Positions 44,973 to 51,162 of a stretch of 64,000 nucleotides of DNA are shown piece after piece (the first letter of the stretch is position 1; each line of letters begins with the position of its first letter). This DNA comes from Anaerolineales bacterium. GTDB lineage: Bacteria; Chloroflexota; Anaerolineae; Anaerolineales; Villigracilaceae. The notes under the pieces are model-generated. The model was given only the letters and a program-made list of their open reading frames with translations. It had not been told where the DNA came from and did no database searches. The stretch lies in assembly GCA_014379595.1 (NCBI GenBank), contig JACMLM010000007.1, forward strand, positions 20,304 to 84,303, written 5' to 3'. Both the position numbers and the translations under genes were made by a program.

Positions 44973-45056
44973 TAGCAAAGACAGTTCTTAAGGCGGGCTA
45001 TCAATGAGTTATTCCATGCTAAACTTCGTACAACAAATTTAAGCCAAGGGATTTAC

Positions 45057-46310
45057 ATGACAAACTCAAAAAACAACTGGGCAGTTCGTTTCTTTACGCT
45101 GTGGACGGGTCAGGCGCTTTCCCTGCTTGGCAGTCAATTGGTGCAATTCGCCATCATTTGGTATCTCACACAAACAACCAATTCTGCCACAACACTTGCC
45201 ATTGCATCCATGATGGGTTTGCTACCGCAAGTTCTGCTTTCTCCATTTATCGGTACATGGGTGGATCGCGGCAATCGCAGATTGATATTAATTGCAGCAG
45301 ATGCGACCGTTGCCGTTGCCACACTTATACTTGCGATCTTGTTCGCACTTGACCTGGCTCAAACATGGCACATTTACGCTGCTCTATTCATACGCGCCGT
45401 AGCAGGAGGTTTTCATCAATCTGCATTTGGTGCATCGGTTGTATTGCTCGTGCCCAAGGAACAACTCGCAAGAGTGCAGGGTTTCAACCAGGCACTATAT
45501 GGCGGGCTAAGTATTATCTCTGCCCCGCTCGGAGCATATCTGCTAGCCGTTTTACCCATGCAAGGTATTCTCTCTATTGATGTTATGACGGCTTTACTGG
45601 CAGTAGCAATTTTGCTCTTTATTCATATTCCACAGCCCGAGCGTAGCGCACAAGCTGAGTCAACGTTCTGGCAAGACTTTGTAGCTGGGTTCCGCTATAT
45701 TATGGCCTGGCGCGGACTTGTCATTTTGCTTGGTTTGGTCATGGTGATCAACTTTTTCTATAGCGCAACTGAACCTTTGACTCCTCTACTGATCACAAAT
45801 CATTTTGGTGGCGGCGCAAATCAGCTTGGCTTGTGGTTATCCATGTTTGCAGTGGGTACACTCCTAGGTGGTTTGATTCTTGGTATGTGGGGTGGATTTA
45901 AAAGCAAGGTTGTCACTGCACAAACTGGTTTAATTCTCACTGGATTAAGCACTGTTGTTGTTGGACTTGTGTCCTCAGATATGTTCGTGGCTGGACTCAT
46001 CGCAAATACAGCTGTTGGATTGCTGCTACCCATTATCAATGGTTCTTTTGGAGCAACATTACAAGCAACAGTCGCACCTGAAATGCAAGGAAGGGTCTTT
46101 GCTTTCATTTTGAGTGCAGCCATGCTTGTTTCACCAATTGCATTAATGATCGCTGGCCCTTTCGCGGATGCATTCGGAATCCAGCTTTGGTTCGTGATCG
46201 CAGGTATTTCGTGTGCAGTGATGGGCGTGGTTGGGTTCTTTATCCCTGATGTAATGGGGATTGAATCGAAAAAAGATTCAATAATCATAACGCCTGAACC
46301 TCAAGAATAA
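45057..46310 (+). CDS. MFS transporter
   Basis: A 417-residue major facilitator protein with twelve predicted helices and the motif-A-like loop FIGTWVDRGNRRLILI between helices 2 and 3. It resembles the MefA/DHA3 group of drug exporters (SLLGSQLVQFAIIWYLTQ). The substrate is unknown. It lies directly upstream of the TIR/nSTAND operon, which has its own promoter, so the two need not be linked. Confidence 0.85.
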   Translation: MTNSKNNWAVRFFTLWTGQALSLLGSQLVQFAIIWYLTQTTNSATTLAIASMMGLLPQVLLSPFIGTWVDRGNRRLILIAADATVAVATLILAILFALDLAQTWHIYAALFIRAVAGGFHQSAFGASVVLLVPKEQLARVQGFNQALYGGLSIISAPLGAYLLAVLPMQGILSIDVMTALLAVAILLFIHIPQPERSAQAESTFWQDFVAGFRYIMAWRGLVILLGLVMVINFFYSATEPLTPLLITNHFGGGANQLGLWLSMFAVGTLLGGLILGMWGGFKSKVVTAQTGLILTGLSTVVVGLVSSDMFVAGLIANTAVGLLLPIINGSFGATLQATVAPEMQGRVFAFILSAAMLVSPIALMIAGPFADAFGIQLWFVIAGISCAVMGVVGFFIPDVMGIESKKDSIIITPEPQE

Positions 46311-46347
46311 ATTATGACTCACAGAATACTCTGCGGAAAACAGCTTG

Positions 46348-46376
46348 TTGACTTTCATGGTCTAAAATCCTATAAT
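46348..46376 (+). promoter_or_regulatory. Near-consensus sigma70 promoter of the TIR/nSTAND operon
   Basis: TTGACT at 46348-46353, a 17-base spacer and a perfect TATAAT at 46371-46376. The GAGGTGA ribosome site and the TIR start follow 25-40 bases later. This suggests steady expression, as expected for a sensor system that is held inactive. Confidence 0.8.
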
Positions 46377-46417
46377 GAAGCGATTGGAATGGGACTGTAA
46401 AGTAGAGGTGACCTGAC

Positions 46418-47152
46418 ATGCAAGACTATGAACAGACTATTTTTGTATCGTACGCATGGGGCGGTGAGAGCGAAGAAATCGTAAACCAAATTGACCAGGC
46501 CATGCAAAAGCGGGGAATTAAGATCACGCGTGACAAACGCGACCTAGGATATAAAGGTTCTATAAAAGAGTTTATGGAACGCATTGGGCAGGGAAATTGT
46601 GTGATTCTAGTTGTCAGCGACAAATATTTGCGTTCTCCGAATTGCATGTTTGAACTGGTTGAAATTGCTGAAAACAAGCAATTCCATGATCGCATCTTCC
46701 CAATCGTTCTAGCGGATGCGGACATCTATGATCCAGTCAAACGGCTTGGATATGTAAAATATTGGGAAGAGAAACGAACTGAACTTGCGGATGCAATGAA
46801 AACCGTTGACCCGGCAAACCTACAGGGCATTCGGGATGACATAGACTTATATGATCGCATCAGAGACAAGATATCTGGCTTAGCCAGTACCTTGAAGGAT
46901 ATGAACACTCTCACAGCAGAGATGCATCAAGATGCTAATTTCAGCCATTTATATGATGCCATTGAAAAGAGATTGAAACAAAGTCCTGAAACAGGAAAAG
47001 ACAAGACAAAGGAAGGCATATCTAATTCAGAAGAGAATGTTACGGCTACAAATGGTGGAATAGCCGTGGGTAAAATTCAAATTGGCGGGAATGTAGAAGG
47101 AAGCAATATTGTTATTGGCAACAACAACCAGGTAAATAACAAAAAGAAGTAA
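46418..47152 (+). CDS. TIR domain effector with C-terminal signalling motif
   Basis: A 244-residue protein. Residues 5-150 form a TIR/SEFIR-like domain: IFVSYAWGGESEEIVNQI, KITRDKRDLGYKGSIKEFM, LVVSDKYLRSPNC and MFELVEIAEN, where E79 sits at the place of the catalytic glutamate of NADase TIRs. A linker of about 60 residues leads to a short C-terminal segment, IAVGKIQIGGNVEGSNIV, then IGNNNQVNN. The same motif recurs near the N-terminus of the NTPase encoded 26 bases downstream. It is probably an effector that degrades NAD+ or makes a signal when its partner oligomerises. Enzyme activity is inferred. Confidence 0.85.
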   Translation: MQDYEQTIFVSYAWGGESEEIVNQIDQAMQKRGIKITRDKRDLGYKGSIKEFMERIGQGNCVILVVSDKYLRSPNCMFELVEIAENKQFHDRIFPIVLADADIYDPVKRLGYVKYWEEKRTELADAMKTVDPANLQGIRDDIDLYDRIRDKISGLASTLKDMNTLTAEMHQDANFSHLYDAIEKRLKQSPETGKDKTKEGISNSEENVTATNGGIAVGKIQIGGNVEGSNIVIGNNNQVNNKKK

Positions 47153-47178
47153 GCAGAAATCCAGCAGGTTAATAACTC

Positions 47179-50100
47179 ATGGATGACGATCAGAATCAAG
47201 AAGAACAAAAAGTACAAGCTGATAACAACAGCATTGCTGTTGGAAGAATTTCTATTGGTGGTGACCTCAGTGGGAATATCACCATTGGTAATACAGGGTA
47301 TACATCTAAAGAAGTTTCCGTTCTTATCACTCAGATTCAAACTACATTTCAGCCCAAACCACTTGACGGACGTTGTCCGTATAAAGGACTAGATGTCTTC
47401 GAAGAAGAAGATGCCGAATTATTTTTTGGGCGCGAGAAGTTGGTAGATAATCTGGTCAGCCGCGTAAAGGAATCTCGAACAGTATTCATTACCGGTCCAT
47501 CAGGAAGTGGGAAGTCATCTTTAGTGAGAGCAGGGTTGCTTCATGCACTAAAACAAGGGGCGATTAAGAACAGTGATAAATGGTTATATGAGACCATCAA
47601 ACCAGGTAGAAATCCATTGGAAGCATTAGCTTTTGCTTTTTCACGTTTGAAATCACCAGAATTAGGCAATTATTTTAGTCAAAATATACATCAGCCAAAT
47701 GTATTAGATGAGTGTACAGAATCTGTACTGAGTGAGAGAAAAGACCAGCGACTGGTTTTGTTTATTGACCAATTCGAGGAAATTTTTACACAAGTAAGCA
47801 AAGGCATAACCGATGCTTTTCTTCAGTTAATTACAAATTCTGTGTCTAAACAAAACGGGCGCGTCATCATTTTGTTTTGTATGCGTTCAGACTTCCTCCC
47901 AAACTGTGCAACGTACCCTGAACTTAATACACTTCTCAGTCAACAGTTTATTCAGATCGGTGCCATGCAGTCTAATGAATTGGTGAGTGCGATTGCACAA
48001 CCTGCTTTACGAGTAGGCTTACGCATTGACCCAGACCTAGTTGCCCAAATCATTAATGATATGAAAGGTGAGCCAGGCGCATTACCTTTGATGCAATTTG
48101 CATTGAAGGAGTTATTCGATATAGAACAAGCCAAAGGTGGTCTCATCGCGTTGGCCTTGAGTGATTATTTAAAACACGGTGGCATTGACGAAGCATTAGA
48201 ACGACATGCCGACAATTCGCTGGCAAAGTTGAGTGGTCATGAACAACAACTCGCACGAAACATCTTCAGTGCATTGATTGAGATCGGGCGAGGCACGCAG
48301 GATACTCGACGCACAGCTTTGTTTGAAGAATTAATTCCTGCTAGTACAAGTGAAAATGAAATAGAAATAATTGTTCAAAAGCTAGCTGATGCTCGCTTAG
48401 TTACTACTGATGAACAGGCAGGCAAAGATACAATTACGATTTCGCACGAGAAATTAATTGATGCCTGGCCCTGGTTGAAAAAATTGGTAAATGAAAACCG
48501 CGAAGTGATTGCTTTACAAAATGAAATTAATAGCGCCGCCAAAGAATGGGAAGAACACAAACGCGACATTAGTTATTTATATACAGGTGCAAGGTTACTT
48601 AATGCAGATGAACAAGTTAAAAAACAGAACCTTAACTTAAATCAACTGGCAAGAGAATTTGTAAAAGCGGGTCAAGCAAGGAAACGCCGTTCGCAAGGAT
48701 TGCTTTTCTCTGGGTTTTCAGTGGTTTTAATTGTTTCGATTATTGTTTCGGTGCTTTTTAGAAATCAAGCATTAGCGACTCAAGTTGCAAATAATGAAGT
48801 AAATGCCCAAATAGAAATAGCAGAGGCAAATGCAGAAAAAGCGCAAAAACAAGCAGAAATTGCTCTTGCTCGTCAATTAGCATCACAGGCACAATCAATT
48901 TTTAATGAGAGAGATTTCAGACAACAAATTTCTGTATTGTTGGGAATCCAATCTATTAAAATGTATCCAACAGTAAACGCTGCCATCGTAATAAAAAATA
49001 ACATACTCACACACCCAATAGCTAATATCTCTCAAGATGGTCCCATTACCGCTGTTGCATTTAGCCCAGATGGGAAGTATGCCCTTTCAGGCAGCAAAGA
49101 TGGAACTGCACGGATATGGGAAGCTCAAACAGGAACTGAAATTGCTCGCATGCCACATGATGCTTGGGTATATGCTGTTTCCTTCAGCCCAGATGGGAAG
49201 TATGCCCTTTCAGGCAGCAAAGATGGAACTGCGCGAGTTTGGGAAACCCAAACAGGGGTTGAAATTGCTCGCATGACACATGATGGTCTGGTGCACACGG
49301 CAACTTTCAGCCCTGATGGAAAGTATATTGTTTCGGGTAGTGATGATAGAACTGCGCGAGTTTGGGAAACCCAAACAGGGGTTGAAATTGCTCGCATGAC
49401 ACACGAAAATTCGGTTGTTGCTGTTTCCTTCAGCCCAGATGGAAAGTATGTTCTTTCAAGCAGTGAGGATAGAACTGCGCGGGTTTGGGAAGCTCAAACG
49501 GGAGTTGAAATTGCTCGCATGACATATGAAAGTTGGGTACTTACTGTCATTTTCAGTCCAGATGGAAAGTATGTCATCTCGGGTAGCAGTAGTGGAATTG
49601 CACAGGTATGGGAAACCCAAACAGGAGATGAAATTGCTCGCATGTCTCATAATGGTTGGGTATATGCTGTTGCCTTCAGCCCAGGTGGAAAGTATGTCCT
49701 TTCAAGTGGTCAGGATGGACTTGTATTGGTTTGGGAAGCTCAAACAGGGGTTGAAATTGCGCGCATGTCCAATGAAAGTTTGGTCCATACGGCAACTTTC
49801 AGCCCAGATGGAAGGTATGTCCTTTCAGGCAGTGAAGATGGAACTGCAAGAGTTTGGGAAACTCAAACGGGAGTTGAAATTGCTCGCATGACACATGAAA
49901 TTTCGGTTGCTGTTGTTGCCTTCAGCCCAGATGGAAAGTATGCTATTTCAGGCAGTGAGGATGGAATTGCACGGGTTTGGGAAGCTCAAGCAAGCAATGA
50001 AATTGCACACATGTCTCATGAAGGTTCGGTCTATACAGTTGCCTTCAGCCCAGATGGAAAATATATCCTTTCAGGTGGTAATGATGGAACTGCACGAATA

Positions 50101-51120
50101 TGGAAAACTCAAACAGGAGATGAAATTGCTCGCATGTCTCATAATGGTTGGGTATACGCTGTTGCCTTCAGCCCAGATGGAAAGTATGTCCTTTCAGCCA
50201 GCCAGGATGGAGGTATACGGGTTTGGGAAGCTCAAACAGGGATTGAAATTGCACGCATGTCCAATGAAACGAATGTATTCTCTTTCGCTTTCAGCTTAGA
50301 TGGAAAGTATGTCCTTTCAGGTGGTGAGGGTGGAACTGCGCAGGTGTGGGAAGTTCAAACAGGCAATAAAATTGCTCGCATGACACACGAAAGTTTAGTA
50401 TACACGGTTGCCTTTAGTCTAGATGGAAAATATGCTATTTCAGGCAGTGAAGATGGAAGCATACGGGTTTGGGAAGCTCAAGCAGGAAATGAAATTGCAC
50501 ACATGTCTCATGAAGGTTCAGTATATACGGTTGCCTTCAGCCCAAATGGAAAGTATGCTATTTCAGGCGGCAAGGATAGAACTGCACGCGTTTGGGAAGC
50601 TCAAACAGGCAATGAAATTGCTCGCATAACGCATGAAAGTTTGGTATATACGGTTGCCTTCAGCCCAGATGGAAAGTATGTTCTTTCAGCCAGTCAGGAT
50701 GGAAGCGTACGGGTTTGGGAAGCTCAAACAGGAGTTGAAATTTCTCGTATTACACATGATGGCCTGGTGCACACAGTTACTTTCAGCCCGGATGGAAAGT
50801 ATATCCTTTCAGGTGGTGAAGATGGAACTGCACGCGTTTGGGAAGCTCAAACAGGCAATGAAATTGCTCGCATGACACATGAAAGTTTAGTATTCAAGGT
50901 TGCCTTCAGCCCAGATGGAAAGTATGCCATTTCAGCTAGTCAGGATGCAAGTATACGGGTTTGGATATGGCAAACAGAAGATTTAATTGTAGAAGCATGC
51001 TCACGGGTCACTCGCAACTTAACAAAAATTGAGTGGAAACAATATATTGGTGATGCCTTACCTTATCAAGCAATATGTGAAAATTTGCCAATTGAACCAG
51101 AGCCAGCAACAACCCCTTAA
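47179..51120 (+). CDS. nSTAND1 NTPase with membrane span and sixteen WD40 repeats
   Basis: A 1313-residue STAND protein. Residues 19-40 carry the motif IAVGRISIGGDLSGNITIGN shared with the TIR protein. The nSTAND1 NTPase begins at CPYKGLDVFEEEDAELFFGR; Walker A GPSGSGKSS is at about 106-114 and Walker B LVLFIDQFEE at 192-201. After basic residues (ARKRRS) one hydrophobic helix spans about 507-527, then a coiled-coil-like stretch. Sixteen 41-residue WD40 repeats follow from about 620 to 1269, each close to FSPDGKYVLSGSEDGTARVW. It would sense a ligand with the WD40 part and activate the TIR effector. Confidence 0.92.
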   Translation: MDDDQNQEEQKVQADNNSIAVGRISIGGDLSGNITIGNTGYTSKEVSVLITQIQTTFQPKPLDGRCPYKGLDVFEEEDAELFFGREKLVDNLVSRVKESRTVFITGPSGSGKSSLVRAGLLHALKQGAIKNSDKWLYETIKPGRNPLEALAFAFSRLKSPELGNYFSQNIHQPNVLDECTESVLSERKDQRLVLFIDQFEEIFTQVSKGITDAFLQLITNSVSKQNGRVIILFCMRSDFLPNCATYPELNTLLSQQFIQIGAMQSNELVSAIAQPALRVGLRIDPDLVAQIINDMKGEPGALPLMQFALKELFDIEQAKGGLIALALSDYLKHGGIDEALERHADNSLAKLSGHEQQLARNIFSALIEIGRGTQDTRRTALFEELIPASTSENEIEIIVQKLADARLVTTDEQAGKDTITISHEKLIDAWPWLKKLVNENREVIALQNEINSAAKEWEEHKRDISYLYTGARLLNADEQVKKQNLNLNQLAREFVKAGQARKRRSQGLLFSGFSVVLIVSIIVSVLFRNQALATQVANNEVNAQIEIAEANAEKAQKQAEIALARQLASQAQSIFNERDFRQQISVLLGIQSIKMYPTVNAAIVIKNNILTHPIANISQDGPITAVAFSPDGKYALSGSKDGTARIWEAQTGTEIARMPHDAWVYAVSFSPDGKYALSGSKDGTARVWETQTGVEIARMTHDGLVHTATFSPDGKYIVSGSDDRTARVWETQTGVEIARMTHENSVVAVSFSPDGKYVLSSSEDRTARVWEAQTGVEIARMTYESWVLTVIFSPDGKYVISGSSSGIAQVWETQTGDEIARMSHNGWVYAVAFSPGGKYVLSSGQDGLVLVWEAQTGVEIARMSNESLVHTATFSPDGRYVLSGSEDGTARVWETQTGVEIARMTHEISVAVVAFSPDGKYAISGSEDGIARVWEAQASNEIAHMSHEGSVYTVAFSPDGKYILSGGNDGTARIWKTQTGDEIARMSHNGWVYAVAFSPDGKYVLSASQDGGIRVWEAQTGIEIARMSNETNVFSFAFSLDGKYVLSGGEGGTAQVWEVQTGNKIARMTHESLVYTVAFSLDGKYAISGSEDGSIRVWEAQAGNEIAHMSHEGSVYTVAFSPNGKYAISGGKDRTARVWEAQTGNEIARITHESLVYTVAFSPDGKYVLSASQDGSVRVWEAQTGVEISRITHDGLVHTVTFSPDGKYILSGGEDGTARVWEAQTGNEIARMTHESLVFKVAFSPDGKYAISASQDASIRVWIWQTEDLIVEACSRVTRNLTKIEWKQYIGDALPYQAICENLPIEPEPATTP
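49036..50990 (+). repeat. Sixteen tandem 123-base WD40-coding repeats
   Basis: Within the nSTAND gene, units of 123 bases encode 41 residues each, with long stretches of near-identical DNA between units (for example TTCAGCCCAGATGGAAAGTA recurs). The high DNA identity indicates recent duplication or gene conversion. Short ORFs in other frames here are shadows of the repeat. Confidence 0.9.
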
Positions 51121-51127
51121 CAAAAAG

Positions 51128-51156
51128 AATTTGGAAGTCTTGAAAACTTCCAAATT
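51128..51156. terminator. Terminator between nSTAND gene and Rieske gene
   Basis: An 11-base-pair hairpin (AATTTGGAAGT and complement, 7-base loop) lies just behind the nSTAND stop and before the convergent Rieske stop. Confidence 0.6.
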
Positions 51157-51162
51157 ATGCTT

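Follow-up and report, generated by a model that had tools for sequence, protein, structure and literature searches.

The window, the whole 64,000-nucleotide stretch of DNA analyzed, comes from a 4.47-Mb draft genome (G000) of an Anaerolineales bacterium and carries two neighboring plus-strand genes. The first encodes a TIR protein and the second, which begins 26 bp after it, an nSTAND1-WD40 receptor (NLR). A promoter-like site lies 42 bp 5' of the TIR gene, and a search of the plus strand between the TIR and NLR genes found no second one, which is consistent with a single operon. The closest syntenic counterpart in the named collections is locus L253 of an Anaerolineae metagenome-assembled genome (JAKEFL010000078.1). 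The features of the pair are as follows.

46348..46376, plus strand: promoter-like site TTGACT-17-TATAAT (consensus match only)
46418..47152, plus strand: putative TIR effector gene, 244 amino acids; syntenic ortholog in L253 80% identical
46439..46777, plus strand: TIR_2 domain, residues 8 to 120, with candidate catalytic Glu79 in CMFELVEI
46976..47044, plus strand: variable linker of the TIR protein, residues 187 to 209, disordered in the AlphaFold model
47045..47137, plus strand: effector-side motif ATNGGIAVGKIQIGGNVEGSNIVIGNNNQVN, TIR residues 210 to 240
47179..51120, plus strand: nSTAND1-WD40 receptor gene, 1313 amino acids
47221..47295, plus strand: receptor-side motif DNNSIAVGRISIGGDLSGNITIGNT, NLR residues 15 to 39, kept in L253
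47377..48567, plus strand: nSTAND1 STAND NTPase domain, residues 67 to 463, P-loop GPSGSGKSS (PF20703, E 5e-111)
49052..50964, plus strand: WD40 array, 123-bp unit in 15.6 copies with 76% matches, likely the sensor

The TIR assignment comes from a Pfam match to TIR_2 (PF13676). Glu79 is unchanged across 14 homologs and aligns with the conserved Glu of CLDELVKI in the TIR domains of plant NLRs, which are also the closest solved folds to the TIR model. One structural match, 7s2z, is the E100A mutant of RUN1, whose E100 is the catalytic residue. The active site is intact and, with both the fold and the catalytic Glu of a TIR NADase present in the sequence, the protein is likely an NAD-destroying enzyme. 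In its fold and conserved Glu region it resembles the plant TIR-NLRs RUN1, RPV1, ROQ1, and RPP1; in those proteins TIR and NLR form one chain, whereas the window encodes them as two separate proteins whose tails match. AlphaFold models the TIR core (residues 7 to 188) well and leaves the tail (residues 191 to 244) disordered at a pLDDT below 50, a disorder that may in part stem from the shallow alignment.

The receptor scores 372 bits against PF20703 (cut-off, 27.1) and has an intact P-loop, which makes it an nSTAND1 protein, and 16 stretches of it match WD40 (PF00400). It combines a STAND NTPase with C-terminal repeats, as BASS receptors do, and is likely a danger sensor. A model of its N-terminal half, built from a two-sequence alignment with a mean pLDDT of 43, is too poor to serve as evidence. 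These Pfam matches agree with the identities, TIR effector and nSTAND NTPase, that an earlier reading made from the letters of the DNA (the sequence-only reading) had assigned to the two proteins.

That reading had also placed a short shared motif in both genes, and both segments were located. The TIR protein ends with TNGGIAVGKIQIGGNVEGSNIVIGNNNQVNNKKK, its motif core starting at position 47060, and the NLR starts with MDDDQNQEEQKVQADNNSIAVGRISIGGDLSGNITIGNTGYTSK, its core starting at 47233. The TIR tail comprises 31 residues and is rich in Gly, Asn, and Ile. Alignment of the TIR tail NGGIAVGKIQIGGNVEGSNIVIGNNNQVNN with the NLR head NNSIAVGRISIGGDLSGNITIGN gives 14 identical residues out of 20 in the core, against 36 of 60 identical DNA positions and the same codon at 4 of the 14 identical residues; the DNA has thus diverged while the protein pattern was retained, as had been claimed. 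The hyphen written before IGNNN in the sequence-only reading marks no gap in the TIR copy: the cores differ by one residue, and the NLR copy is the shorter. Each copy can be read as three short hydrophobic-x-hydrophobic-Gly strands (IAVG, IQIG or ISIG, and IVIG or ITIG). A Pfam search of both segments returned no family at an E value of ≤10, and neither matches the HET-S model at that threshold.

A composition rich in Gly, Asn, and Ile raises random similarity, so that a chance or low-complexity resemblance has to be weighed. The two motifs nevertheless align with a Smith-Waterman score of 84, whereas 20,000 shuffles averaged 27 and never exceeded 67 (extrapolated p of ∼4e-7), and p is ∼1e-5 when the motif segments alone are shuffled, which controls for their biased composition. 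The match between the tails is not due to chance.

A profile (A2) built from 16 motif copies and applied at an E value of ≤0.01 found the motif at 141 places in 71 of the 396 genomes of the class. Seventeen pairs of motifs lie within 3.5 kb of each other, all on the same strand, where 0.25 would be expected at random; because eight of these represent one orthologous NACHT-FGE/small-protein locus, we count about ten independent pairs. The fetched loci gave 111 profile matches of at least 10 bits and none in reversed or shuffled open reading frames (ORFs), and among 49 ORFs of at least 300 amino acids, 28 have the motif close to a terminus (8.9 expected). Chance resemblance and a plain beta-solenoid element are refuted by the composition control, the decoys, and the neighbor pairs, and together retain practically no probability. 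The profile search proposed with the sequence-only reading has therefore returned many effector/NLR neighbors with matching ends, and what it had named as fatal to its case, a common beta-solenoid in unrelated proteins with no neighbor pairing, is not what was found. The shared motif and the recurrent neighbors support its view that the locus has the architecture of an amyloid-type signaling pair.

The family consensus is G-x-x-[SAG]-[VI]-x-[VI]-G-G-[DN]-V-x-G-S-x-I-[VI]-x-G-[DN]-x-N-x-V; across 101 segments of the family, Gly makes up 17%, Asn 10%, Val plus Ile 26%, and Gln 3.7%. Among 96 motif proteins, the Pfam families found most often are the STAND-type NTPases AAA_16 (30), NACHT (18), nSTAND3 (15), NB-ARC (7), and nSTAND5 (5), together with FGE (15), TPR_12 (13), TIR_2 (8), and EAD10 (4). 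The motif joins effectors to STAND NTPases with TPR, WD40, or FGE sensors. These effectors include caspase C14 (L206), CHAT (L197), TIR (L096, L215, and L199), and DUF4062 (L216), the last described in a recent report as a TIR-like NADase that acts in antiphage defense (PMC13174449). Single chains occur in the order TIR-motif-NTPase (L070 and L249) and TIR-motif-FGE (L220, L236, and L247), and orphan motif-TIRs are found at L096, L199, and L256. At the conserved NACHT-FGE locus (L071, L073, L074, L082, L093, L200, L204, and L205), the NACHT-FGE protein and its partner of 135 to 146 amino acids both have an N-terminal motif, and the receptor copies have a diverged second motif half (TIIHxQTVVL). 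In a survey of the phylum centered on nSTAND1, a short glycine motif precedes the NTPase in only 4 of the 65 genes (in the window, L101, L152, and L094), and the majority carry other domains in fusion; the motif-centered survey was therefore used instead.

The family consensus also has eight matches in plasmids, all from Streptomyces, Nonomuraea, or Nostocales; this range of multicellular Actinobacteria and cyanobacteria is that reported for BASS motifs (PMC9815663). Four of the eight plasmids were read by gene, and all four encode effector/NLR neighbors with motifs at matching ends: a 148-amino-acid helical protein next to one of 1207 amino acids in Aulosira laxa, 155-amino-acid proteins with a hydrophobic segment next to TPR NTPases in two Streptomyces plasmids, and CHAT next to AAA in Tolypothrix. 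The window tail itself has no match in the plasmids, nor does the consensus have one in phage records. Streptomyces tails of the AxGERSIAIGGDN type may be members of a larger BASS family, which we take as a lead only. Small proteins that have a hydrophobic helical domain at the N terminus and the motif at the C terminus, and that match no Pfam family (L080, L084, L087, L194, and L286, the last on the Aulosira laxa plasmid) recur from Anaerolineae to cyanobacteria; an example of the domain is FLAPFLPYLLKxGEKAAEExGKKLG...WxKL. By their likeness to the description of Bell proteins, these are candidate Bell-type effectors.

Within the class, L253 keeps the upstream methyltransferase, cyclase, PIG-L, and DinB genes, followed by the TIR and nSTAND1-WD40 genes with the motifs SIGVGKIDIGGDVSGNIVIGNNNQIN and NNSIAIGGMSIGGNVGDIRIGHITGY. 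Between the window and L253, dN is 0.07 in the TIR domain, 0.39 in the linker (residues 187 to 209; 10 of 23 identical, with indels), and 0.15 in the TIR motif (residues 210 to 240; 24 of 30 identical). For the NLR motif it is 0.26, compared with 0.30 just before and 0.11 just after. The contrast between motif and flank is thus clear for the TIR protein but weak for the NLR. That L253 retains both tails while the TIR linker diverged speaks for a two-protein switch. A third TIR, at L256, keeps the C-terminal tail STAVGKISIGGNMNGNFVIGNNNKVN behind an inserted helical stretch or domain and has no adjoining NLR. It could be argued that a TIR-motif-NTPase chain was split and that its duplicated junction persists without function, and the single chains at L070 and L249 show that such proteins exist. 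This is very unlikely, as distant loci have preserved the motif while the TIR linker decayed, and as unrelated effectors and NTPases share it in three phyla.

The pair occupies a slot (window positions 44973 to 51162) between PIG-L/DinB and a Rieske-SufU-SufS cluster. In the genus relatives L275, L279, and L282, PIG-L is followed directly, after about 45 bp, by Rieske/SufU/SufS, and other genus relatives have PIG-L and then DinB with short inserts. L278 has in the same slot a 764-amino-acid protein of the motif family, starting with MANVSINGNVTDSVMVFGNNNYVV, and a separate WD40 protein whose C terminus resembles that of the window NLR. The slot is therefore variable, and the motif persists as modules change. 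An MFS transporter gene (45057 to 46310) lies between DinB and the TIR gene in the window and is missing there in L253. L263 (VFKN01000047.1) encodes a close TIR homolog whose glycine-rich stretch, KVSGGINIQGKNVNVGGDV, is a different one; next comes an AAA_16-TPR protein with no obvious matching head, which may reflect replacement of the tail.

Across the 17 neighbor pairs, the effector motif scores a mean of 63 against the motif of its own receptor, versus 48 against the others (permutation p of ≤5e-5), and p is also ≤5e-5 in reduced sets of 13 and 10 pairs; shared ancestry or lineage composition may contribute in part to this within-pair resemblance. The window genome has at least six loci of the motif family. 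There the TIR tail scores 88 against the 136-amino-acid protein of L068, 69 against L069, 69 against L070, and 69 against its own NLR, so that the neighbor matches well without being the sole match. The TIR might then serve as a hub recruited by several motif NLRs rather than by its neighbor alone, to which the orphan motif-TIRs also point; this would fit either physical mechanism considered below. Against it, the best partner of the NLR in the genome is the neighboring TIR tail (69, with the next at 46), and the two genes adjoin and are both kept in L253. On balance, we regard such a hub as doubtful.

A second motif class, LSGDFRGxxxNIKST, scores 76 within its own pair and 14 to 35 against members of the first. 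It occurs at L101 (G000:C38), where the N terminus of an nSTAND1 protein (309879-311105) and a small helical protein encoded by an upstream 127-amino-acid ORF share it as YDLSGDFRGAVVNIKST and INLSGDFRGSIINIKST; the version on the nSTAND1 side is also present at L152, in another family. The window genome is also unusually rich in TIR domains, with 27 TIR_2 matches in the 4.5-Mb draft, several of them in fusion with WD40 or TPR-rich chains.

The closest known counterparts are the BASS motifs (Dyrka et al. 2020), described in PMC7889193, PMC9815663, and PMC8086366. As in BASS/Bell systems, a similar short motif of 20 to 40 amino acids is found at the effector C terminus and at the N terminus of the adjacent NLR. 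BASS motifs accompany Bell-like helical, CHAT, and TIR effectors, as does the family described here; TIR is already listed as a less frequent BASS-associated domain (PMC7889193), so that the window effector falls within the known effector classes. Unlike in a typical BASS system, the effector is a TIR, the receptor is nSTAND1-WD40, and the host belongs to Anaerolineae; the likeness is one of architecture. Chloroflexota is not named as a BASS host in the three papers cited. The arrangement is also like that of HET-s and NWD2, in which a WD-repeat NLR adjoins an effector and the motif lies at the NLR N terminus and the effector C terminus (PMC7889193); unlike HET-s, the motif has no HET-S Pfam match, the effector has a single copy, and TIR takes the place of HeLo. 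A well-supported analogy is therefore that the pair would work like BASS/Bell-NLR signalosomes and NWD2/HET-S, a kind of signaling already known.

The description of the tails as RHIM-like was not supported. Like RHIM, fungal PP, and BASS3, they have short beta-strands ending in Gly and are rich in Asn, and the TIR half-site IQIGGN alone looks RHIM-like, the NLR having Ser in place of Gln. However, neither tail has the G-phi-Q-phi-G core that defines these motifs, and a single one of the 101 family segments contains it. RHIM has the core G-(I,V)-Q-(I,V)-G (PMC7885112), and PP has the pattern NxGxQxGxN (PMC9815663); the central residue in this family is usually Ala. RHIM membership is ruled out on the core pattern.

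We propose that the two genes encode an immune or cell-death switch made of two proteins. The WD40 array would bind a trigger, and the nSTAND1 NTPase, as expected from its family, would oligomerize and bring together its N-terminal motifs, which are short and normally disordered, as a seed. By homotypic templating, most likely of the cross-beta (amyloid) kind, the matching C-terminal tail of the TIR protein, itself disordered, would then join this seed, and the TIR domains, packed together, would become active, probably hydrolyzing NAD+ and stopping or killing the cell. We consider this amyloid-templated switch as a whole to be probable. The contact between the tails is very likely homotypic, and a cross-beta amyloid is the reasonably probable form of that contact. 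Known amyloid motifs are often rich in Gln/Asn or built on a Gln core, and the scarcity of Gln in the family argues against an amyloid here.

The same genetic evidence would fit a homotypic adaptor without amyloid, in which the two tails would form a finite beta-hairpin or beta-arch with each other, or sit on an NTPase ring in fixed stoichiometry, and recruit the TIR as EADs or Death-fold adaptors do. Homotypic recruitment by EADs is described for such system types (PMC7159879, PMC8195603), and a low-confidence model gives the NLR motif three short strands (pLDDT of ∼40). Like EADs, the motif is probably homotypic, and it is terminal and common to neighboring effector and core genes with similar co-occurring domains (PMC7159879), EAD10 itself among them. 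Most EADs, however, are larger, globular, and helical, whereas the motif has 25 to 30 or so amino acids, few of them aromatic or charged, is Gly rich and disordered in the TIR monomer model, and belongs to no Pfam family; no Pfam EAD matched the TIR protein or either of the two motif segments, so the pair does not classify as an EAD system. Its Gly, Asn, Val, and Ile content suits stacked short strands. We therefore regard a non-amyloid adaptor as rather improbable and favor amyloid templating.

A wider reading, conceivable though we would put it below even, is that one Gly/Asn-rich amyloid-type motif family serves as a cell-wide code in Anaerolineae. Within one cell, multiple sensors and effectors (TIR, caspase, CHAT, and DUF4062) would interconnect by means of variants of a single motif, TIR-mediated NAD+ depletion would be amyloid gated, and chromosomal hotspots would exchange modules but keep the motif.

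The family census lists effector/receptor pairs, their single-chain counterparts, and orphans, which lend themselves to work on motif specificity and cross-talk. The pair itself, with a 244-amino-acid TIR, a tail of ∼31 residues, and an NLR motif of ∼25 residues, offers a compact test case for amyloid-gated NAD+ loss in bacteria. With its conserved paired tails, it would extend the NLR-amyloid arrangement to an effector of the TIR NADase type in Chloroflexota.
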